A DNA stretch of 64,000 bases from positions 6,572,001 through 6,636,000 of the forward strand of contig NZ_CP070619.1 in the NCBI RefSeq assembly GCF_017068395.1. Reading direction: 5' to 3'. This DNA is from Rhodococcus pseudokoreensis. GTDB taxonomy: Bacteria; Actinomycetota; Actinomycetes; Mycobacteriales; Mycobacteriaceae. Shown here piece after piece: positions 394 through 13,015 of this stretch. The position numbers and the translations under genes were made by a program. Within the stretch, counting starts at the first letter, position 1. Each line of letters opens with the position of its first letter. A model generated the notes under the pieces. The model ran no database searches. It worked only from the letters and a program-made list of their open reading frames with translations, and had not been told where the DNA came from.

Positions 394-1875
394 ATGGTGA
401 CGACGGGCGCCGGGTCGGTCACGGTCACGGTCCCGGCCCGGCGGTCCGGAACGCGCGATCGGCTGCTGGTCCCGGCGCTGTGCTTCGTCGTCATGACCAC
501 GGCCGTCATACAGACGGCGGTCGTGCCGCTGCTCCCCGCGATGGCGTCGCAACTCGGGGTCGATTCGGCCGCCGTGGGCTGGGTGGTCACCGCGAACCTG
601 CTCGCCGCGGCAGTGTGCACTCCGGTTCTCGGCAGACTGGCCGATCGGCGTGGTCCGCGCCCGGTGCTGCTGGGGACGCTCGTCCTGGTGCTCCTCGGTT
701 CGGTGCTGTGCACCGTCACCGAGTACCTCCCGTTCCTCGTGCTCGGCCGAATTCTTCAGGGGGTGTCGTTCGCGCTGTTCCCGATCGGCGTCGCCGTGTT
801 GAGAGGACGCCTCGAACCGCGCCGGCTACTGGGCGCCATCGGGCTGATGTCGGGGATCCTGGCCGTGGGCGGGGGACTCGGCATGGTCGCCGCCGGCGTC
901 CTGCACACCGAGGGTGCGGACTTCCGGCGAGTGTTCGCCCTGCTCGCCGGGCTGAATCTCGCCGCGCTCGTCGTCGCCTGGGTGACCGTTCCTCGCGGCG
1001 GCGCGGCGCGGACCCGCGACGGCATGGACCCGGTCGGCGTCGGTCTCATGGCCGTGGGCCTGTCCGCGATCCTGATCGCCCTCGCCGAAGGCGGCCGGTG
1101 GGGCTGGGCCTCACCGCCGACGATCGGCGTGGCGGCACTGGGGATCGCCGTCACCGCGGGGTGGTACCTGCACGAGCGGCGGACCCGGGCGCCCCTCGTC
1201 CCGCCGATGCTGCTGTCCGGGCGGCGGGTTGCGGGCACGCACCTCGCGGCGTTTCTCGTCGGGATGGCCATGTACATCCAGTTTCTCGGTTCGGCGCAGT
1301 TCGTGCAGGCCTCGCGCGCCGCCGTCGGATACGGCTTCGACGCCTCGGTGCTGCGCACCAGCCTCCTCGTGCTGCTTCCCGGTTCGGTCGCGGGGGTGGT
1401 GGCGGCGTCGGCGAGCGGCCGATTCGTTCACCGCTTCCGCGCCGACCGCGTGCTCGTCGCGGCCTGCGGGATCGGGGTGGCCGGATTCGCGATGCTGGCG
1501 CTGGCCCACTCCCGGTTGTGGCAGGTGGTCGTGGCACTCGTCGTGATCAACGTTTTCGTGAGCGGGTCGTACGCGGTGCTGCCCGCGTTGCTCGTCGACG
1601 CCGTGCCTGCCGAATTCACCGGGGTCACCAACGGCATCAACGCGATTGCGCGGACCTTCGGTAGTTCGCTCGCCAGCGCGCTGGTCGCGACACTGCTCGC
1701 GTCCGTGACGGTCGCCGGCACTGATCTGGCGTCCGAGCGGGCGTTCGTGATCGCGTTCTGGGTGGGCAGCGCGGCGGCGGGAGGGGCCGGGCTGGCAATC
1801 GCTCGAGCGGAACACGTTTCGAGAAAACGTGCCGATCGGGGTGTCCGATTCGGTGCAACATCAGTTAATCTATAG
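394..1875 (+). CDS. MFS drug/metabolite exporter (DHA2/EmrB-like)
   Basis: Integral membrane transporter of 493 residues with about 14 hydrophobic segments, the length and layout of the DHA2 (EmrB/QacA) family of proton antiporters. Residues near 80-90 (GRLADRRGPRPVLL) match the MFS loop 2-3 signature and an MFS motif-C-like stretch follows. Start ATG lies 3 bp after the reductase stop, suggesting one transcript. Substrate cannot be told from sequence; neighbours in acyl-CoA metabolism suggest export of an aromatic or fatty catabolic compound, but this is inference. Confidence 0.85.
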   Translation: MVTTGAGSVTVTVPARRSGTRDRLLVPALCFVVMTTAVIQTAVVPLLPAMASQLGVDSAAVGWVVTANLLAAAVCTPVLGRLADRRGPRPVLLGTLVLVLLGSVLCTVTEYLPFLVLGRILQGVSFALFPIGVAVLRGRLEPRRLLGAIGLMSGILAVGGGLGMVAAGVLHTEGADFRRVFALLAGLNLAALVVAWVTVPRGGAARTRDGMDPVGVGLMAVGLSAILIALAEGGRWGWASPPTIGVAALGIAVTAGWYLHERRTRAPLVPPMLLSGRRVAGTHLAAFLVGMAMYIQFLGSAQFVQASRAAVGYGFDASVLRTSLLVLLPGSVAGVVAASASGRFVHRFRADRVLVAACGIGVAGFAMLALAHSRLWQVVVALVVINVFVSGSYAVLPALLVDAVPAEFTGVTNGINAIARTFGSSLASALVATLLASVTVAGTDLASERAFVIAFWVGSAAAGGAGLAIARAEHVSRKRADRGVRFGATSVNL

Positions 1876-1957
1876 ATCGTAGGTTTGTAGCGGTGGCGCG
1901 AGGCGTCTGCCGTGACATCGATGTCGCCCGGCGGCGACGGCGGAAGGTTGAGTGGAG

Positions 1958-3475
1958 ATGGCTGCGACAATCGGGTCGGCATTGCACTGGTGGGCGGCGA
2001 CGAAGGGCGACCAGCGGGCGATCGTCGTCGACGACGACGCGCTCACGTACCGGGAACTGCAGGACTGGTCGAGCCGCGTTGCTCGCCGGGTCGTCGAGGC
2101 CGGGATCGAGCCGGGTGACCGAGTCGGCGTCCTCGGCCCGAACTCGCTCGAGTGGCCTGCCGTCGCGCTCGGAGTCCTCAAGGCGGGCGCGGTCCTCGTG
2201 CCGCTGAACCCCCGGCTCAAGCCCGCGGAACTCCGCAAGGTCGTCGACGACGCGGGAGCCCGGCTGGTGCTGGCGCCCGCCGAATTCGGCGACGCGGTCG
2301 AGAAGACCCGCGCCCTGGGAACGACGTTCGATTCGCTGCCCTTCGACGAATTCGCGGCGCTGCGCAGTGGCGGTGCGGACGACTTCCGGATCGACGTCGG
2401 TCCCGAAGACCCGACGGCGCTGCTGTTCACCAGCGGGTCGACCGGACTCTCCAAGGGCGTGATCTGCACCAATCGCACCCTGCTCAACATCGTCTTCGAG
2501 GCGTCGCTGACGGAAGAGGGGCTGCGGCCCGGGGCGACGACCCTGCTGGTCCTCCCGCTCGTCTTCACCCCGGGCCTCGTGTGGGGTCTGCTCATGACCA
2601 CCGTGCTCGGCGGCACCATCATCATCGAACGCGAGTTGAAGCCGGGACGCGCGGCGGCACTGCTGAGTGAACACAAGGTCCAGGCCCTCTTCGGTGTCCC
2701 GTTGATCTTCGAGGCCATCTCCCGTGCCCCGGAATTCGACAACGCGGATCTCGATTCCCTGCGCACGGCGATTGTCGGCGGCGCTGCCGTCGCACCCGCC
2801 CTGCTGCAGCGGTGGGCGGACAAGGGAGTGGCGCTCCGGCAGATCTACGGAATGACCGAGGCCGGGGGAGTCGCGACCGCCACGCTGGTGAGCGAGGCAT
2901 TCGACCACCCTGGGACGTGCGGAAACGGCTCCATCTTCACCGAGATGAAAGTCGTCCGCCCGGACGGGACCGAGGCCGACCCCGGAGAGGAAGGCGAAAT
3001 CCTCCTCAGCGGGCCCGGCGTCACGCCCGGCTATTGGAACGACGAGGAGTCCACCGCGGCCGCACTGCGGGACGGCTGGCTGCACAGCGGTGACCTGGGA
3101 ACCCGGGACGCCGAAGGGCGCCTGCAGTTCGTCGACCGGCTCAAGGACCTCATCATCACCGGAGGAATCAACATCTCTCCGGTGGAACTCGAACGCGTGA
3201 TCGGTGAGATCGAGGGAGTGGAGGAAGTGGCGGTGATCGCCGCGAAGGACCCACGGTTCGGTGAGACGCCCGCCGCGATCGTGACGGTGACCGGCGACGT
3301 CGACGAGGTCGCCATCGTCGAGCACTGCGACCGCCTCGTCGCCGACTACAAGGTGCCCCGGTACGTCGTGATCCGCAACGAACCCCTGCCGCGTCTTCCC
3401 AGCGGAAAGCTGTCGAAGACCGCCATCAGATCCGAGTATCGGGACGTATCCGAACGGTTCTCGAAGGTGCGCTGA
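1958..3475 (+). CDS. acyl-CoA synthetase (AMP-forming)
   Basis: ANL-superfamily enzyme that adenylates a carboxylic acid and transfers it to CoA. The P-loop-like A3 motif (LLFTSGSTGLSKG), the A5 motif (IYGMTEAGG), the A7 motif (LHSGDLG) and the C-terminal A10 lysine region (PSGKLSKT) are all present, and about 505 residues is the normal length. The in-frame GTG at 1952 is only 4 bp from the GGAAGG ribosome-binding site, so the ATG at 1958 is preferred. The enoyl-CoA hydratase 40 bp downstream suggests a small catabolic operon. Acid substrate unknown. Confidence 0.88.
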   Translation: MAATIGSALHWWAATKGDQRAIVVDDDALTYRELQDWSSRVARRVVEAGIEPGDRVGVLGPNSLEWPAVALGVLKAGAVLVPLNPRLKPAELRKVVDDAGARLVLAPAEFGDAVEKTRALGTTFDSLPFDEFAALRSGGADDFRIDVGPEDPTALLFTSGSTGLSKGVICTNRTLLNIVFEASLTEEGLRPGATTLLVLPLVFTPGLVWGLLMTTVLGGTIIIERELKPGRAAALLSEHKVQALFGVPLIFEAISRAPEFDNADLDSLRTAIVGGAAVAPALLQRWADKGVALRQIYGMTEAGGVATATLVSEAFDHPGTCGNGSIFTEMKVVRPDGTEADPGEEGEILLSGPGVTPGYWNDEESTAAALRDGWLHSGDLGTRDAEGRLQFVDRLKDLIITGGINISPVELERVIGEIEGVEEVAVIAAKDPRFGETPAAIVTVTGDVDEVAIVEHCDRLVADYKVPRYVVIRNEPLPRLPSGKLSKTAIRSEYRDVSERFSKVR

Positions 3476-3515
3476 CACACCGCGACACGGAACCACGACG
3501 AAAAGAGAACAGTTC

Positions 3516-4358
3516 ATGACGAGTATCGCCACCGAGAGCGTCGTCCAACTCGAGCGGGACGGTGAGATCGCGATCGTGCGGCTGAATCGCCCGGATCGAC
3601 TCAACGCCTTCACTCTCGAGGTGCGGGACCGCATCATCGAGGTCTTCGACGAATGCGATGCCGACGACACCATCCGTGCGATCGTCCTCACGGGAACCGG
3701 CCGCGCCTTCTGCGCCGGGGCCGACCTCGCGAAGGGCGGCGACACGTTCGTCACGGAGGACGACCCGGACAGCGGCGAGGCGCCACCCGATTCGGGCGGT
3801 CAGGCGTCGCTGCGGATCTACCGGTCGACGAAGCCGGTGATCGCCGCGATCAACGGTCCGGCAGCGGGAGTCGGCGTGACGATGACACTGCCCGCCGACA
3901 TCCGGATCGCCTCCGACACAGCCAAGTTCGGATTCGTATTCACCCGTCGCGGGCTCGTGCCCGAGGCCTGTTCCACCTGGTTCCTGCCCCGGATCGTCGG
4001 GATCTCGACCGCCGTCGAGTGGGCCGTGGGCGGGAAGATGGTGTCGGCGGCGGAGGCGCTCGAACGCGGCCTCGTCCGCGAGGTCGTCCCCGCCGACGAA
4101 GTGCTGCCGCGGGCGATCGAGGTGGCGCGCGAACTGGCGACGGGCACCTCACCGGTCTCCGTCGCGCTGACCCGGCAGTTGATGTGGAGGATGCTCGGCG
4201 CCGACAGCCCGGAGGTCGCGCACCGGGCCGAGTCGATCGCCATCCACGTCCGCGGAACGTCGGCGGACGTCCGCGAAGGGGTCGCGGCGTTCCTCGACAA
4301 GCGGCAGCCCGACTTCCCCCAGTCGGTGTCCGACGGCCTGCCTGACCTCTTCCGCTGA
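3516..4358 (+). CDS. enoyl-CoA hydratase/isomerase family protein
   Basis: Crotonase-fold protein of 280 residues. It contains the CoA-binding and oxyanion-hole segments AFCAGADLAKG (near residues 65-75) and INGPAAGVG (near 113-121). The region that carries the second catalytic Glu in true hydratases reads LVPEACSTWFLPR, so hydratase activity is plausible. It probably hydrates the enoyl-CoA made from the product of the upstream synthetase. An 18-bp hairpin follows and separates it from the convergent nitrilase-family gene. Confidence 0.85.
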   Translation: MTSIATESVVQLERDGEIAIVRLNRPDRLNAFTLEVRDRIIEVFDECDADDTIRAIVLTGTGRAFCAGADLAKGGDTFVTEDDPDSGEAPPDSGGQASLRIYRSTKPVIAAINGPAAGVGVTMTLPADIRIASDTAKFGFVFTRRGLVPEACSTWFLPRIVGISTAVEWAVGGKMVSAAEALERGLVREVVPADEVLPRAIEVARELATGTSPVSVALTRQLMWRMLGADSPEVAHRAESIAIHVRGTSADVREGVAAFLDKRQPDFPQSVSDGLPDLFR

Positions 4359-4375
4359 ACACCGTTGCCCGGGAA

Positions 4376-4415
4376 TTGGTCAGGTTCACACGCTATTGCG
4401 TGTGAGCCTGACCAA
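4376..4415. terminator. bidirectional hairpin between convergent genes
   Basis: An inverted repeat of 18 bp with a single G-U pair and a TATT loop lies exactly between the stop codons of the convergent enoyl-CoA hydratase and nitrilase-family genes. It has no U-tract, as is common in actinobacteria, and would be read as a hairpin on both strands. Confidence 0.75.
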
Positions 4416-4426
4416 TGCGCCGGAAT

Positions 4427-5227
4427 CTACGGCTTGGCGACCACGCCGAAGCGGCGCAGCGACAGCGCCGGGTTCTTGGCGCGGACCTCGGCGATGCGCT
4501 CGGCGGAGACGGTCCCGATCGCGGTTCCGGTCCGTTCGCCGAGGGACGCGATCACCACGCCCATCGGATCCACGATCATGGAGGCACCCGAACCCACCGG
4601 AGCGCACTGATCGGCCGCGAGGACGTAGAGGGTGTTCTCGATGGCCCGGGCGCGGACGAGCGTGGTCCAGTGGTCCTCCTTGAGCGGGCCCGGCATCCAC
4701 GCGGCCGGCAGGACCAGGACGTCGGCGCCCGCGTCGACGATGCGCCGGGTCACCTCCGGGAACCGCAGGTCGTAACACGTCTGCATGCCGAACGTGATGC
4801 CGTCGACCGTGAACGTCTCGGGATCGTCGATCGTCCCCGCCTGCACGAACTCCGACTCCTGGTAGCCGAATGCGTCGAACAGGTGCAGCTTCCGGTACGT
4901 GGCGGCGATGCCGCCGTCGGGGGCGACCGCGACGAGGGTGTTGAAGATCCTGCGCTCGCCCGGGATCGCCTCGTTGATCCCGGTGACGAGGGTCAGCCCG
5001 TGCCGGACGGCGATCTCGCGCAGGCCGGTGACGAATTCACCGCCGAGGGATTCGGCAGTGTCCACGAATCGCTCGTCGATCACCGGGAGCGCGAACATCG
5101 CGTATTCGGTCGTCGCGAGTACCCGGGCGCCGCCCGCGGCCGCCGCCCCGGCGAACGTCGCGATCTGCCCGAGGTTGTCGCGCTTGTCCGAACCCGATGC
5201 GAACTGTGCGATGGCGACGTCGATCAT
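4427..5227 (-). CDS. carbon-nitrogen hydrolase (nitrilase superfamily amidase)
   Basis: Cytosolic amidohydrolase of 266 residues with the complete nitrilase-superfamily triad: Glu in TTEYAMF (near residue 40), Lys in YRKLHLFD (near 110) and nucleophilic Cys in GMQTCYDLRFPE (near 147). The length and the DLRFPE context resemble the Nit1/omega-amidase and Rv0480c-type group. Substrate is not determinable; deamination of a damaged or alpha-keto amide is a reasonable guess. It reads toward the hairpin at 4376-4415. Confidence 0.87.
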   Translation of the reverse strand: MIDVAIAQFASGSDKRDNLGQIATFAGAAAAGGARVLATTEYAMFALPVIDERFVDTAESLGGEFVTGLREIAVRHGLTLVTGINEAIPGERRIFNTLVAVAPDGGIAATYRKLHLFDAFGYQESEFVQAGTIDDPETFTVDGITFGMQTCYDLRFPEVTRRIVDAGADVLVLPAAWMPGPLKEDHWTTLVRARAIENTLYVLAADQCAPVGSGASMIVDPMGVVIASLGERTGTAIGTVSAERIAEVRAKNPALSLRRFGVVAKP

Positions 5228-8628: not shown

Positions 8629-9246
8629 ATGTCCGGATGGTTGGCTCCACGTCCCGGTGACCCGGAGCGCGAAGGTGTCGGTGAAGAGCTGACACGCGTC
8701 GCGACGGCTCAGGCGGGTTTCTTCACCACTGCGCAGGTGCTGCGCCTCGGTTTCGCTGCCGACGAGATCGGCGAGCGACTCGCCGACGGCTCGTGGATCA
8801 AGATAGAGCGAGACCTGTTCCGCTTGAAGGATTGTCCGCACTCCGATCTCGAGGAGTTCGCGAAGTGGTGTACCTGGTTCGGTGCCGCCGCCGCGGTCTC
8901 CCACCAGAGTGCCGCCGAACTTCACGGTCTCGGGCACCTGTACCCGCGCTTCATCCACCTCTCGACGGTGCTGTCGCCGCCCTCGCCGACTCAGCAGTTG
9001 GCGCTGCACCGGCGGTCACTCCGCCCGGAGGACTGCGAGCAGGTCGGCCCGCTGCGCATCACAACGCCGTTGTGCACGGCACTCGACCTCGCCGCCAGCG
9101 GAATCTCGCAGGAACTGCTGGACGAGGTGGTCGCCGACGGCGTCGCGATCGGGCGACTCGACGCGCGCGCACTGCACAGCGAATGCGGATCCCTGCCGGC
9201 GCAGGTGGCGCAGCGCGTCGAACACGCACTGGCCACCTGCACCTGA
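8629..9246 (+). CDS. AbiEi-antitoxin-domain protein, no visible toxin partner
   Basis: 205 residues. The N-terminal 60 residues (TAQAGFFTTAQVLRLGF) match the winged-helix domain of AbiEi-type antitoxins, and the rest (AVSHQSAAELHGLGHL, TTPLCTALDLA) matches the AbiEi C-terminal fold. Type IV antitoxins act as transcriptional repressors and normally sit next to an AbiEii nucleotidyltransferase toxin, which is absent here. Such solitary genes are common in actinobacteria, so a plain regulatory role is as likely as a toxin-antitoxin one. Confidence 0.7.
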   Translation: MSGWLAPRPGDPEREGVGEELTRVATAQAGFFTTAQVLRLGFAADEIGERLADGSWIKIERDLFRLKDCPHSDLEEFAKWCTWFGAAAAVSHQSAAELHGLGHLYPRFIHLSTVLSPPSPTQQLALHRRSLRPEDCEQVGPLRITTPLCTALDLAASGISQELLDEVVADGVAIGRLDARALHSECGSLPAQVAQRVEHALATCT

Positions 9247-9262: not shown

Positions 9263-10810
9263 TCAGAACGGCCACTCGCCGTCCCGGGTGCCCTCCAGGA
9301 GCGGGATCATCGAGAACCCCGCGTCCGACAGTCCGCCGAACGTGTGACGGTTCGCGGACCCCGCCGGTCCGTGTCCGTGCCGGTAGCCCGCCACGTTCCA
9401 GGTGTAGACGGGGACGTCGGCCGGGACGTGCCGGGTCGGATCACCCCACGCCGCCTGCTCGTCGGTGACGATGACGACGCGATCGTGGCCGCGGTAGTGC
9501 TTCCGCACCGCCGCCGCAGTGTCCGTGCCGCCGAGGTCGCCGAAGCTGTCGACCACGCGCAGCACCGCCTGATTCGCGAACGGCACGGCCCGGCTGTTCG
9601 TGCCGAACTCGACGAGGTCCGCGCGCGCGGCGCGTGCCGCCAGCACGGTGCCGAACACGGCGGCCGCGTCCGCCCTCGTCAGCTCCGACCGCGCCGAGAC
9701 GCGGCTGTAGAACATCGATCCGGACCGGTCGACGAGAACCAGGGTGCGGCCGGGCAGCGACGGGACCGCGGACAGCGACGCCCCGAGCGCACGCTCGAGC
9801 GCATGTCCCCACCGCAGGCTCGGCGCGTTCCGGTACGCCGCGAGAAATCGCATCGGCAGCTGCCGCGACTGCGCGACCTCGCCCGGATCGGCGATCCTGG
9901 CCGCCACCTGCTCCGCAACGTGGTCGGGGATCCCGGCCTCGTCGAAGTTCCGCAGGTTACGGAGAAGCGCCATGAACCCCATGGACGGGATCACCGCCTG
10001 CCAGGCCGCGGCATCCATCGGTCCCTGCAGCCAGCCGGCGAGCGACTCCCACGTCATGCCGGCCGCCGACAGCCGCTCCGGGGTCCGGAGGACGGCACGC
10101 CGGTCCTCCGGCGGGAGTGCCGCCAGCGCCGCCCGCTCCGTGAGCACGCGCAGACCGGCAGGCACGGCGTTCTCACGCCCCTGCCGCCGGTCGATCGCGT
10201 GCCGGAACAGCTCGCCCTGCCACGCCGCCGACGGCGACGCGTGGGTGAGCTCGAGAACGTCGCCGAAGCGGACGTCCCTGGCCTCGGAATCCCACTTCAG
10301 CAGTGAGCGTTCCGAATACAGCCGGGCGGCGGCGTCGGCGACACCGCGCTTGACCGGCTTCGGAATCGAACGACCGTGCCGGGACATCCAGTACGCGAGG
10401 ATCTCGCCCGGCTCGTCGGCCCGCTCCAGTGCGGAAGAGATGACGGCACGGTTGCCGCCGTGCAGTCCGGCACCCAGCCGGGCCCGGACGAACTCGGCCG
10501 CGGCCACCACCGACGCGGAACGCAGATGCGCATCGCGGCGCAGCCACCCGATCAGGCGGGCGGTCCACTCCGGATCCGACAGTGCGACCTCGTGGATCAG
10601 CGCGACGAACCGTCCGTCGCGGTCCGACGCCGACTCGTAGAACGTGTGTTCACCGACCATGTTCGTGACCGCGAGGAGGAACAACTCGCTCTTCGCGTCG
10701 CGGGCGTAGCCGCTGCCGCCCTCGAAGGTGCGGCCCGACGGTTGCGTCTCCGACGCGATGGGGCTCCGTACCTTGGTGCGGCGCAGCGTCTTCGGGTTGA
10801 ACTTGCTCAT
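9263..10810 (-). CDS. rsr: Ro60/Rsr homologue (TROVE + von Willebrand A domain)
   Basis: Ring-shaped RNA-binding protein of 515 residues. The N-terminal about 340 residues form the TROVE domain of alpha-helical repeats (ELFLLAVTNMVGE, RLIGWLRRDAHLR, MGFMALLRNLRNF). The C-terminal vWA domain keeps the MIDAS motif VDRSGSMF (DxSxS) and the T/D residues (GGTDT, IVTDEQ). In Deinococcus and Salmonella, Rsr binds Y RNAs that tether it to PNPase for structured-RNA decay. The start MSKFNPKT is fixed by a strong AGGAGG 8 bp upstream; a longer open frame to 11062 overlaps the RNA elements and is not coding. Two Y-RNA-like elements lie just upstream on the same strand. Confidence 0.95.
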   Translation of the reverse strand: MSKFNPKTLRRTKVRSPIASETQPSGRTFEGGSGYARDAKSELFLLAVTNMVGEHTFYESASDRDGRFVALIHEVALSDPEWTARLIGWLRRDAHLRSASVVAAAEFVRARLGAGLHGGNRAVISSALERADEPGEILAYWMSRHGRSIPKPVKRGVADAAARLYSERSLLKWDSEARDVRFGDVLELTHASPSAAWQGELFRHAIDRRQGRENAVPAGLRVLTERAALAALPPEDRRAVLRTPERLSAAGMTWESLAGWLQGPMDAAAWQAVIPSMGFMALLRNLRNFDEAGIPDHVAEQVAARIADPGEVAQSRQLPMRFLAAYRNAPSLRWGHALERALGASLSAVPSLPGRTLVLVDRSGSMFYSRVSARSELTRADAAAVFGTVLAARAARADLVEFGTNSRAVPFANQAVLRVVDSFGDLGGTDTAAAVRKHYRGHDRVVIVTDEQAAWGDPTRHVPADVPVYTWNVAGYRHGHGPAGSANRHTFGGLSDAGFSMIPLLEGTRDGEWPF

Positions 10811-10847
10811 GGTTGTTCCTCCTTCCGGGAGGTGTCGGTGCTCGTGG

Positions 10848-10954
10848 GTGCGCGCCACCCGAGGTCGAGGCGACGACGGGGTGCGGAGTCGAACCGCGTG
10901 CTTGCGCACTTCACCTGAGAAGTATCCGTCGTCTGCGCACCGGGTGGCGCGCAC
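10848..10954 (-). ncRNA. Y-RNA-like element 2 (cloverleaf-like tRNA mimic)
   Basis: Read on the minus strand, 107 nt closed by a perfect 14-bp stem (10941-10954 with 10848-10861). Inside, an 8-bp helix (10926-10933 with 10872-10879) encloses a D-arm-like hairpin (stem ACTTC/GAAGT, loop TCAGGT with the conserved GG, 10908-10923), a short GCAA-loop hairpin, and a T-arm (stem GCGG/CCGC, loop TTCGACT, 10883-10897). This is a Ro-binding-type stem topped by a tRNA-like module, as in bacterial YrlA RNAs. The 5' motif CCGGTGCGCAG...TACTTC is shared (22 of 25 nt) with element 1. It ends 37 nt before the rsr start codon, inside the likely rsr leader. Confidence 0.72.
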
Positions 10955-10955
10955 G

Positions 10956-11100
10956 CATGTCGTGCCGAGTTCGGAGTCGGCGGAGGCACGGACGCGCTCT
11001 ACCACTGAGCTACAGGGACCTGCGTCCCTGACCGGATTCGAACCGGCGACCACGCGATCCACAGTCGAAGTAGCCCTCGCCTGCGCACCGGCACAACATG
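10956..11100 (-). ncRNA. Y-RNA-like element 1 (circularly permuted tRNA mimic)
   Basis: Read on the minus strand, 145 nt closed by a 12-bp stem with one G-U (11089-11100 with 10956-10967). Within it come, in order, a T-arm (GCCGG-TTCGAAT-CCGGT, 11031-11047), the 3' acceptor strand CAGGGAC (11024-11030), a GCAG loop, the 5' acceptor strand GTCCCTG (11013-11019), TA, and a D-arm (GCTC-AGTGGTA-GAGC, 10996-11010). A helix of 6-7 bp with one bulged U (11054-11060 with 10990-10995) takes the anticodon-stem place. So the tRNA fold is permuted: acceptor ends are joined and the anticodon loop is opened into the Y-RNA stem. Another 7-bp helix with a bulged C joins 11075-11081 to 10979-10986. Confidence 0.78.
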
Positions 11101-11112
11101 TTTCGTGAACCG

Positions 11113-11141
11113 ACTCTACGGGCCGCGTCGGGGGATGTCGC
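11113..11141 (-). promoter_or_regulatory. predicted promoter of the Y-RNA/rsr unit
   Basis: On the minus strand, GCGACA (11136-11141; four of six match TTGACA) is followed after exactly 17 nt by TAGAGT (11113-11118, TANNNT class). The predicted start is an A at 11106, six nt before the closing stem of element 1. That placement supports the 5' end assigned to the RNA. Confidence 0.6.
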
Positions 11142-11146
11142 GTGAA

Positions 11147-11944
11147 TTAATTCGTGCCGGAACCGGGCGCGACCAGATCCCACGGAACGGTGAGGATGTT
11201 GTCGCGGATCCGCCGGCGCTGCGGCTGCACGGGAAGTCCCTGCGCGCGCAGCAGTTCGAGGGCGGCGCGCCACCGCACCCGCGGTCCGAACGAGCCGTGC
11301 GGCGCCGCGGTGGCCCATGCGCGATCCGCCGCAGCGAGGAGAGCGTGGACCGGCTCACCCGGGACGTTGCGATGGATCAGCGCCTTGGGCAGTCGTTCGG
11401 CGATGTCCGACGGCTTCTCCACGGCGAACGGATCCCACGCCAGCGTCAGCGACAGCGGGCGGGTGGCGTCGAGCAGCACCCACGCGCAGCGGCGGCCCAG
11501 TTCGTCACACGTGCCGTCGAGGATCAACCCGCCCGGTGCGAGCCCGGACTGCATCCGCGCCCACGCCGGCCCGACCGCATCCTCGGGGTACTGCCGCAGC
11601 ACGTTGAACGCACGGACCAGGACGGGACGCAGTCCGGAGAGCTCGAACCCGCCGCGGGCGAAACTCACTCCGTTCCTGCTCTCGACCACACGCTCGGGGT
11701 CGATCTCGAGCCCGACCACCCGGCGGTCGCCGCGCACCGCGGTCAACCGGTCGGCGAGCTCGAACGTGGTGTGCGGCCGGGCGCCGTACCCGAGGTCGAC
11801 GACGAGCGGGTCAGCGGACGCGTGCAGCGTCCGGCGCACCAGCGCGTCGTGGACGAGCCAGCGGTCGCTGCGGCGCAGCCGGTTGATGCCTGTCGTACCC
11901 CGGGTGATGACACCGTGAGGCCGCCTCAGCGTCGCTGAAGTCAT
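11147..11944 (-). CDS. SAM-methyltransferase-like protein
   Basis: 265 residues. The segment LVVDLGYGARPHTTFEL (near residues 46-62) is a motif-I-like SAM-binding loop, and VVGLEIDPERV near 77-87 fits motif II. I recognise it as a conserved actinobacterial methyltransferase-fold protein of unknown acceptor. It ends directly upstream of the predicted Y-RNA promoter, and the upstream DUF2505 gene reads in the same direction 21 bp away. A link to RNA metabolism is possible by position only. Confidence 0.62.
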   Translation of the reverse strand: MTSATLRRPHGVITRGTTGINRLRRSDRWLVHDALVRRTLHASADPLVVDLGYGARPHTTFELADRLTAVRGDRRVVGLEIDPERVVESRNGVSFARGGFELSGLRPVLVRAFNVLRQYPEDAVGPAWARMQSGLAPGGLILDGTCDELGRRCAWVLLDATRPLSLTLAWDPFAVEKPSDIAERLPKALIHRNVPGEPVHALLAAADRAWATAAPHGSFGPRVRWRAALELLRAQGLPVQPQRRRIRDNILTVPWDLVAPGSGTN

Positions 11945-11965: not shown

Positions 11966-12466
11966 CTAGTGCTGCGACAACCACGTTTCGGTGATCTCGG
12001 CCTCGGCGCGGAAGAGGTCGATCAGATTCACGAGCATCAGCTGCTCGAGCTTCCCGCCGATGAACGGCAGGTACACCTTCGCCTCGGACGAGGTGCGGAA
12101 CGTGCACCCCGTCTCGGTGGCGAACAGCTTCATGGTGCCCGTGAGACTGCCGGGACCCGCCGGGATCGACGCCTCGTACGTGCCCGTGGTCGGCTCACCG
12201 AAGGGCGTGTACGACTCCTTGCGCGTGATGACCATGTCCTTCTTCATCACGGTCTGCGCGACCTCGGGGAGTTCCGACCGCGGCAGGATGTGGTGCAGGA
12301 CGATGTCGATCCCGTCGTCGTTCACGTCGAAGTGCTCGATGTGATTCTCGGAGTACTTCCGCATCTCCTCGATGCGCGCATCCCAGTAGTCACGGTTGGT
12401 GAACGCGTTGTACACCTCTTTGGGGGTGTGCTTGTAACGGGCTGAGTAGTCGATGCGGCGAGCCAT
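11966..12466 (-). CDS. DUF2505 family protein (copy 1)
   Basis: 166 residues with the START/SRPBCC-like pattern of DUF2505: N-terminal RIDYSARYKHTPKEVYNAF, a central beta-rich part, and a C-terminal helix (FIGGKLEQLMLVNL). These proteins bind hydrophobic ligands in related families, but no function is assigned. A paralogue lies 51 bp upstream on the same strand; the pair corresponds to the position of Rv0481c. Confidence 0.78.
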   Translation of the reverse strand: MARRIDYSARYKHTPKEVYNAFTNRDYWDARIEEMRKYSENHIEHFDVNDDGIDIVLHHILPRSELPEVAQTVMKKDMVITRKESYTPFGEPTTGTYEASIPAGPGSLTGTMKLFATETGCTFRTSSEAKVYLPFIGGKLEQLMLVNLIDLFRAEAEITETWLSQH

Positions 12467-12517
12467 GATCGCCTAGGTTACCGGCTGGGACCTGACACAA
12501 CGGACACCCGCCCCAGG

Positions 12518-13015
12518 TCAGCCCCCGAGCCACTGCTCGGTGAACTCCTGCTCCTTCGCGATCAGGCGGAGGACCTCGTCCGCGATCGCGTTCTCGATCT
12601 TGCCGCCGATCAGCGGGATCCTGACCTCGGCCTTGCCTTCGACCTGCACGTTCGCCCGGGAACCGTCGGCTTTCAGCGTCTGAGTTCCGGAGATCGTCGC
12701 AGGCGCACCCACCACCTCGGCCGTGAACGTGCCCTCGGCGTGATCGCCGTCGAGCGTGCCCCACGTCTCCGTGCGCTTGATCACGAGGTCGCCCGGACGG
12801 ACCTTCGAGACGATACTGGGCAGGTGCTCGGCGGGGATCGACTGCGACATGGCCACCGAGATGGTGCCCGGCCCGGTCGTGACCTGGTCCAGGGCGGCCC
12901 CCGGTCCGCCGACCTCGTCCAGACGGTCGCGCCAGTACTGCTCGGTGATCAGGCCCGCATGGACCTGGGCGACGGGAAACGCATAGGACGACGAATGCTC
13001 GATGCGGCGGCTCAC
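12518..13015 (-). CDS. DUF2505 family protein (copy 2)
   Basis: 165 residues, paralogous to the neighbour: RIEHSSSYAFPVAQVHAGL at the N-terminus and IPLIGGKIENAIADEVL near the C-terminus align with the same positions of copy 1. It starts with GTG and diverges from murB with only 26 bp between starts, so the two genes share a compact promoter region. The tandem pair probably arose by duplication. Function unknown. Confidence 0.77.
   Translation of the reverse strand: MSRRIEHSSSYAFPVAQVHAGLITEQYWRDRLDEVGGPGAALDQVTTGPGTISVAMSQSIPAEHLPSIVSKVRPGDLVIKRTETWGTLDGDHAEGTFTAEVVGAPATISGTQTLKADGSRANVQVEGKAEVRIPLIGGKIENAIADEVLRLIAKEQEFTEQWLGG

Follow-up and report, generated by a model that had tools for sequence, protein, structure and literature searches.

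The window analysed here, a stretch of 64,000 nt from Rhodococcus pseudokoreensis (contig NZ_CP070619.1, positions 6,572,001 to 6,636,000), carries on its minus strand an rsr gene, encoding a homologue of Ro60, that is preceded by two adjacent structured elements, which we call E1 and E2. Our analysis leaves little doubt that both elements are Y RNAs of the Rsr system, as an initial annotation had proposed. With good confidence, the head of E1 can be read as a circularly permuted tRNA with four arms (T, acceptor, D and anticodon-like), and E2 carries the Y-RNA core though its head differs. Judged from the sequence, E1 adds an arm that is foreign to the curated consensus and E2 is a variant head on a known core; tandem Y RNAs are not new. 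On the minus strand, E1 (11100-10956) is followed by one base (10955), E2 (10954-10848), 37 nt and the rsr ATG (10810), which confirms the earlier description of a TROVE/vWA gene behind two same-strand structured elements of 145 and 107 nt, 1 nt apart and 37 nt from the ATG. The main features are the following:

10956 to 11100, minus strand: E1, a YrlA-type Y RNA with a predicted permuted-tRNA head, 145 nt; model R2, Rfam YrlA and covariation
11067 to 11089, minus strand: E1 Ro-box GGTGCG..TACTTC, presumed Rsr-binding strand; the box travels with rsr in the genus
10848 to 10954, minus strand: E2, the second predicted Y RNA, with a T-arm-only head, 107 nt; models R2 and R3
10919 to 10941, minus strand: E2 Ro-box, 20 of 23 positions identical to the E1 box
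9263 to 10810, minus strand: rsr (TROVE and vWA-like, Ro60 homologue), with its start taken at the ATG at 10810

Y-RNA core, linkage with rsr and tandem arrays

E1 and E2 each hold the core that is typical at actinobacterial rsr loci, made of a closing stem, the GGTGCG..TACTTC box, an upper stem and ..CTCGG. The separate closing stems of 12-14 bp that had been claimed for the two elements are present, with 12 pairs including one G-U in E1 (CATGTTGTGCCG/CGGCACGACATG) and 14 pairs in E2 (GTGCGCGCCACCCG/CGGGTGGCGCGCAC), and so is the shared motif of 25 nt, CC followed by GGTGCGCAGxCGAxGGxTACTTC, with 22 identical positions. Both elements have paired ends and conserved presumed Rsr-binding bases, the binding being assigned by analogy, as are the name and role of the Ro-box, which are our own. 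Stretches with one element each were more stable than all 200 of their shuffles (z -2.9 and -4.9). Two covariance models were built from elements of other genera, with no Rhodococcus among them: R2 from 27 YrlA-type and R3 from 13 short elements. In the window, R2 found E1 at 117.7 bits (E 7e-27) and E2 at 49.1 bits (E 4e-10), the next match being at 12.6 bits, and R3 scored E2 at 57.9 bits. Since both models score E2 well, it has a Y-RNA core.

The elements are closely linked to rsr. In the genus of the window, sampled by 28 genomes (the locus L020 of genome G182 being counted outside), a protein search gave rsr matches in nine genomes. The box common to E1 and E2, GGTGCGNNGNNNNNGGNTACTTC, occurs in the same nine, the remaining 19 genomes having no copy and a reversed control giving 0/28, and it lies at most 4.3 kb from the rsr match in all nine; box and rsr are thus linked in 9/9 genomes, and in the window the elements stand 37 nt upstream. 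In a wider draw of 401 genomes of the family, rsr was found in 22 and the box in 26, with 17 in common. Nine family genomes have the box without rsr; the four examined (G172, G387, G389 and G399) lack the rest of the element, and the reversed control matches family genomes at about the same rate as these cases arise. Another genome, G090, contains a complete orphan element of YrlA type (L093, G090:C1:1211245-1211267), at a distance of 2.5 Mb from its rsr match, which is partial.

Decay of the locus points in the same direction. In R. opacus ATCC 51881 (G008, L092 about 600-4550), the D-arm of E1 is split by ~4 kb of inserted DNA, the box and upper stem of E2 are altered, and rsr lacks residues 52-89 with its frame still open. 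E1 survives in G027, where little is left of rsr and E2. The elements and rsr thus appear to change together in these two genomes, which we count in favour of the Y-RNA reading.

The initial annotation regarded two different tRNA-mimic designs in one leader as unusual; as far as the tandem itself is concerned, this view does not hold. Ninety-six stretches were searched with the models, partial or duplicate ones being left out (L008, L010-L012, L016, L024, L025, L029-L032 and L051). Four were then dropped, L092 as degraded, L093 as an orphan, L022 for its one weak match and L232 as a duplicate of L048, so that 92 remain. At least one match was found at 91 of these 92 loci, L021 having none, and at least two Y RNAs at 73/83 loci outside the genus (74 before the correction of L266), with up to six in Nocardia. 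Some of the counted loci supplied training elements for R2 and R3, and since near relatives and several loci per genome are included, the loci are not independent; some matches are fragments (seven elements have no readable box). Among actinobacterial rsr loci drawn later, found by the protein alone and unused for training, 43/51 have at least two Y RNAs; these 51 are 52 of 56 places minus L232, with the same correction of L266. Actinobacterial rsr loci therefore have tandem arrays as a rule; the pairing of E1 and E2 is ordinary, the diversity of heads less so. Full heads (T-arm, acceptor hairpin and D-arm) are mixed with another class at 62/83 loci and absent at 16/91, both counts being too high because the D-arm expression is narrow and misses variants.

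At L266 (G412:C174:25349-27409), where ARAGORN finds twelve tRNA genes upstream of the Y RNA and rsr, the second of three matches overlaps tRNA genes and the first looks like pieces of tRNA genes, and we counted a single Y RNA. The loci L254, L257 and L260 are extra rsr copies of three genomes, each with one short Y RNA within 2 kb and no tRNA-like part. At 16 of the 32 loci with at least two full heads (L252, L255, L256, L258, L259, L271 and L274-L276 are among them), the heads of a single array resemble different tRNA families in their D-arms, as sorted by our own regular expressions.

Two heads, a probable permuted tRNA and a T-arm

The predicted parts of the two heads are:

11055 to 11067, minus strand: E1 anticodon-like stem-loop CGA-CTGTGGA-TCG; tRNA register, conserved loop form
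11031 to 11047, minus strand: E1 T-arm; Rfam YrlA alignment and covariation
11013 to 11030, minus strand: E1 acceptor-like hairpin CAGGGAC-GCAG-GTCCCTG; Rfam YrlA alignment and covariation
10996 to 11010, minus strand: E1 D-arm GCTCAGTGGTAGAGC; Rfam YrlA alignment and covariation
10926 to 10933, minus strand: E2 upper stem, 5' strand GACGACGG; 8/8 paired with 10879-10872
10872 to 10879, minus strand: E2 upper stem, 3' strand CCGTCGTC; pairs with 10926 to 10933
10909 to 10922, minus strand: E2 hairpin CTTC-TCAGGT-GAAG with an invariant GG; possible D-loop substitute
10883 to 10897, minus strand: E2 T-arm GCGG-TTCGACT-CCGC; loop of 7 nt in 6/7 Rhodococcus E2, of 8 nt in L007

E1 shows the T-arm, acceptor hairpin and D-arm of YrlA in permuted order. 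The resemblance of YrlA to D, T and acceptor arms is described in a review (PMC8394870), and the circular permutation of its head is likewise known (PMC11472068). For covariation, we aligned 32 YrlA-type elements (alignment A3), chosen by box, T-arm and D-arm expression and with 3' ends set by complementarity, so that the invariance of box, T-arm and D-arm is uninformative because these parts were selection criteria. Compensatory changes with pairing kept were found in 21/33 predicted pairs and, when the closing stem is left aside, in 14/23, located in the upper stem, T-stem and acceptor hairpin. Comparing stems in this way had been proposed as a check, and it bears out the E1 family.

The initial annotation overlooked the anticodon-like arm of E1. 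Between box and T-arm stands a stem-loop at tRNA spacing, with a 5-base 3' stem, a variable region of 4-5 bases and then the T-stem. We applied a rule (Y32, U33, R37 and three inner pairs) to heads that had first passed a T-arm filter. All five distinct Rhodococcus E1 heads passing that filter fit the rule; the L007 head fails the filter, but its loop CTGTAGA fits. The arm was also recognised in 41/103 bacterial heads outside the genus (the other 62 have no recognisable arm under the rule) and in 36/61 heads of viral contigs, against 0-3 for five shifted-register pairs and a mean of 0.07-1.1 (maximum 5) for shuffled segments. The viral contigs were gathered separately by the box and, as tRNA-like calls were known beforehand in both sets, they form a second, non-blind sample. 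Among the 49 bacterial and Rhodococcus loops that passed, the pair 31:39 is A-U in 33, G-C in 7, C-G in 5 and U-A in 4. The triplet varies, with 21 different ones in these 49 loops and 16 in the 36 viral-contig loops; all eight Rhodococcus E1 have C32, U33 and A38 with a purine at position 37, and their triplet is GTG, ATG, GTT or GTA. Under a like rule, in which A38 replaces R37, 4/14 proteobacterial and phage YrlA matches pass and none does in eleven other registers. The Rfam YrlA consensus has no anticodon-like arm; the region forms a 13-nt insert in two proteobacterial YrlA sequences as aligned by Rfam, of which one passes the rule and the other has C33. The arm is thus not restricted to actinobacteria, while many heads lack it or have it in a form that escapes recognition. 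No mention of it was found in the literature searched, of which only parts were available, and it may already stand in the primary papers on bacterial Y RNAs. This arm bears on why bacterial Y RNAs resemble tRNAs: as its form is kept and its triplet is not, in bacteria and in viral contigs, part of the class probably copies a whole tRNA.

E2 has only the T-arm of the three YrlA arms, and we do not class it as YrlA. Outside the genus, T-arms occur in 9/87 heads without acceptor hairpin and D-arm, against a shuffled mean of 0.06 (maximum 2). Among 19 E2-like heads sorted by hand, the upper stem pairs 8/8 in 16, and its positions 2-7 vary in pair type with pairing kept, the partner strand having been chosen by best pairing (that of L018 is probably misplaced). 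The initial annotation had placed a T-arm and a D-arm-like hairpin in each element; both stand in E1, and in E2 the T-arm alone does. We dropped the D-arm of E2 as not established, since its TTC/GAA hairpin (3-4 bp) is just as frequent in short Y RNAs that have no tRNA part (29/66, against 5/13 in E2-like heads).

It is possible, if doubtful, that the E2 head mimics a tRNA elbow in natural order, with the upper stem as acceptor, the GG hairpin as D-arm, then a middle hairpin and the T-arm. The GG is invariant in the seven Rhodococcus E2 while adjacent bases vary and, under a structural rule, it directly follows TACTTC in 7/7 bacterial T-arm heads without a following hairpin and in 8/110 with one, the motif having been selected after viewing the same data. 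Sorting by hand gave 14/17 against 3/107, with a T-arm-distance screen applied to the 17 only; a first count had been inflated where the GG was part of the T-stem. The association was not repeated in viral contigs (0/4 versus 5/61 and, by another sorting, 2/18 versus 3/47), so that we no longer propose the GG as the D-loop substitute of E2 outside this alternative, and the hairpin stem is non-specific. Rfam tRNA-Sec aligns to E2 in natural order at chance level only (E 2.1). A natural-order head does exist elsewhere: in the viral contig L140 (IMG/VR UViG_3300045836_000108), a Y RNA upstream of rsr (about 445-285, minus strand) encloses within its stem a tRNA-Thr(GGT), called by ARAGORN at 397-322, whose arms follow the natural order and whose acceptor stem is weak by eye; by its sequence this head appears to be an unpermuted counterpart of the usual one.

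Several observations weigh against our reading of E1 and E2. Rfam at its cut-offs gives no match in the window. A search with Rfam YrlA (RF02553) had been suggested as a check, and its outcome is divided: at a loose limit E1 scores 41.2 bits, below the cut-off of 69, and is the best YrlA match of the whole 9.9 Mb genome (E 4e-7); the gathering cut-off is likewise missed by every Y RNA of the 20 actinobacterial loci given to this model. RNAfold favours another fold of E1 (-71.3 kcal/mol, versus -56.5 for the permuted-tRNA model), and the seven Rhodococcus E2, too alike for such a test, show no compensatory change. In G007 both T-arms are altered (a T-stem pair is lost in E1 and the loop of E2 has 8 nt) yet rsr is intact, which speaks against a strict requirement for the T-arm. 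The exact box is missing in 5/22 family genomes with rsr (G068, G099, G180, G182 and G207); the Y RNAs of G182 (L020) carry variant boxes, the partial rsr matches of G068 and G207 were left out of the model search, and the full-length loci of G099 (L021) and G180 (L022) gave no match and one weak match, respectively. Hence rsr can occur without such Y RNAs nearby. Lastly, Rsr reaches 21.2 bits with the NCBIfam Rsr equivalog NF041674, whose cut-off is 900; therefore its function is transferred by analogy.

Transcription and possible roles of the pair

Two promoter-like hexamers precede E1:

11136 to 11141, minus strand: GCGACA, -35-like; at 8 Rhodococcus loci and at L013, read by eye
11113 to 11118, minus strand: TAGAGT, -10-like; 12 nt ahead of the E1 closing stem

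The arrangement GCGACA-17-TAGAGT is kept, by eye, at the eight Rhodococcus loci, with a similar form at L013; the -10-like hexamer is TAGAGT in seven of the eight, TGGAGT in L009 and TACGGT in L013. A promoter had been fitted before E1 in the initial annotation, and the conserved hexamers agree with it, while a promoter scanner found no promoter-like site at the locus. The scanner gave no terminator-like site within 10780-11320 either. A single promoter-like site without a terminator-like one suggests a single transcript from which the Y RNAs would be cut.

We consider it likely that the two elements act as noncoding Y RNAs, E1 tethering PNPase and E2 gating Rsr, and for this division into tether and gate, taken by itself, the chances appear even. 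Both RNAs would be made from the rsr mRNA transcript or just ahead of the mRNA, and Rsr, as work on relatives indicates, would bind their common core. The head of E1, a permuted tRNA whose opening lies between nt 26 and 27, would keep PNPase attached to the Rsr ring and would undergo tRNA-like modification. E2, which shares the core and has a T-arm only, would occupy Rsr without a tether or with a different one, and the E1:E2 ratio would set the share of Rsr coupled to the nuclease. A tether formed by Rsr, Y RNA and PNPase (PMC8394870, PMC4726728) and a Y RNA acting as a gate on Rsr (PMC4726728) are both described. With its swapped heads, the pair may be regarded as a natural experiment on tether versus gate. 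A survey by Chen in 2014 reportedly placed Y RNAs close to Ro60 in over 250 species, each of which has one or more with a tRNA-like domain.

Alternatively, E1 and E2 could act mainly as the leader of the rsr mRNA, which Rsr would bind so as to shut off or stabilize its own message. We regard this as unlikely. The elements do share the strand of rsr and end 37-42 nt ahead of its ATG in seven Rhodococcus loci, and the lack of a terminator-like site would suit a leader. However, it is the spacing between the two boxes that is constant (148 nt in 7/7 Rhodococcus loci), and the gap to the ATG is not; the YrlA element of G090 stands far from rsr, and the Salmonella and M. smegmatis RNAs are described as noncoding RNAs bound by Rsr (PMC4726728).

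A still less probable alternative is that the heads are decoys for enzymes that attack or modify tRNA, above all anticodon nucleases. The conserved U33, R37 or A38 (in part a selection rule), the covarying stem, the many triplets and their differences among Rhodococcus E1 orthologues would fit such a bait, as would the rsr matches in 62/120 box-bearing viral stretches and the actinophage records carrying rsr. In PMC7790460, a competitive inhibition of anticodon nuclease by YrlA is raised as possible, but no YrlA fragments are reported when the nuclease acted; furthermore, most bacterial heads (62/103) show no recognisable anticodon arm, and varied triplets also fit plain drift. As a speculation to which we attach an equally low probability, the Y-RNA arrays at actinobacterial and phage rsr loci could be banks of complete permuted tRNAs, with anticodon loops of tRNA form, varied triplets and differing D-arm families. 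They would present a whole-tRNA surface, with the anticodon arm, to tRNA-damaging or tRNA-modifying enzymes and so couple the Rsr-nuclease machinery to attacks on tRNA such as may occur in phage infection, with E2-type and short Y RNAs as untethered counterparts.

That the elements are remnants of tRNA genes, or a split or permuted gene giving a working tRNA, is very improbable: E1 does contain all tRNA arms, and such RNAs are called as tRNAs by ARAGORN on isolated elements (E1 alone is called tRNA-His) and in phage annotations, but the conserved box, the closing stem and the linkage with rsr are foreign to tRNA, and orthologues differ in their triplet. In the window, ARAGORN gives no tRNA and Rfam tRNA reaches 16.3 bits against a cut-off of 29. 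ARAGORN on re-ordered heads was discarded as a test, being non-discriminating (122/138 real heads, 123-125 with a shuffled arm).

Taking E1 and E2 as Y RNAs of the Rsr system, the closest known counterpart of E1 is YrlA (RF02553; Salmonella YrlA, structure 6CU1), which likewise joins a Y stem to a permuted tRNA-like head (T, acceptor, D) beside the Rsr gene. E1 differs by its score below the Rfam cut-off, by its box (GGTGCG..TACTTC, versus CGAAUGC..AACUAC in the Rfam consensus) and by its extra anticodon-like arm, and E2 lacks acceptor and D arms. The Salmonella rsr-yrlBA-rtcBA operon also has two Y RNAs beside rsr, but according to PMC7790460 their genes lie between rsr and rtcBA, under RtcR, whereas here they stand before rsr; the Salmonella-like order is also found at L285, L286, L289 and L290. 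The likeness to the Deinococcus Rsr-Y RNA-PNPase complex (RYPER) concerns the proposed mode of action only, as Rsr here is far below the NCBIfam equivalog and the complex is proposed by analogy.

Actinophages with Ro-like genes, such as Streptomyces phage Alone3 and Gordonia phage VanLee, also have, upstream of rsr, Y RNAs that carry the box and a tRNA-like head; these systems are phage-borne, and one Y RNA of each is annotated as a tRNA gene. In Alone3 it is the 'tRNA-Ser(gct)' before the Ro-like gene (OR725492.1:10920-10993, L293 1774-1847), and in VanLee the 'tRNA-Arg(tct)' in the same position (NC_073474.1:65454-65525, L294 1704-1775), which overlaps a sub-threshold Rfam YrlA match. Both carry a variant Y-RNA box and, by our reading, would be Y RNAs. 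Given these two records and the Rfam cut-off misses at 20 loci, the class is likely to be both under-counted and mislabelled.

The rsr gene and its neighbours

The rsr frame, listed as 9263-11062 (minus strand) from its first GTG, is open through E2 and part of E1. We place the start at the ATG at 10810, giving a predicted protein of 515 aa, because this ATG is preceded by AAGGAGGAAC and agrees with the starts of relatives (MSKF.. or MAKF..); the 37-nt gap behind E2 contains the ribosome-binding stretch. Rsr has a Pfam TROVE match of 51.3 bits (E 1.4e-13), and the two halves of the protein can each be aligned to PDB 9l5y/9kop, 'TROVE domain-containing protein' (98.8 bits). The Pfam scan gave no vWA family above its limit. 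In the alignment to the solved TROVE protein, the second half of Rsr shows DRSGSM, GGT and TDE, which we take to be the vWA metal-site motif, so that the protein combines TROVE and vWA with that motif, as in Rsr/Ro60. It is 96% identical to Rsr of Rhodococcus koreensis and has no match in a library of defence systems.

A gene convergent with rsr (8629-9246, plus strand) gives a weak match to the AbiEi_4 antitoxin domain (20 bits, cut-off 25), and a similar sequence also adjoins rsr at L007. Upstream of the rsr locus, two DUF2505 genes lie in tandem (11966-13015, minus strand).

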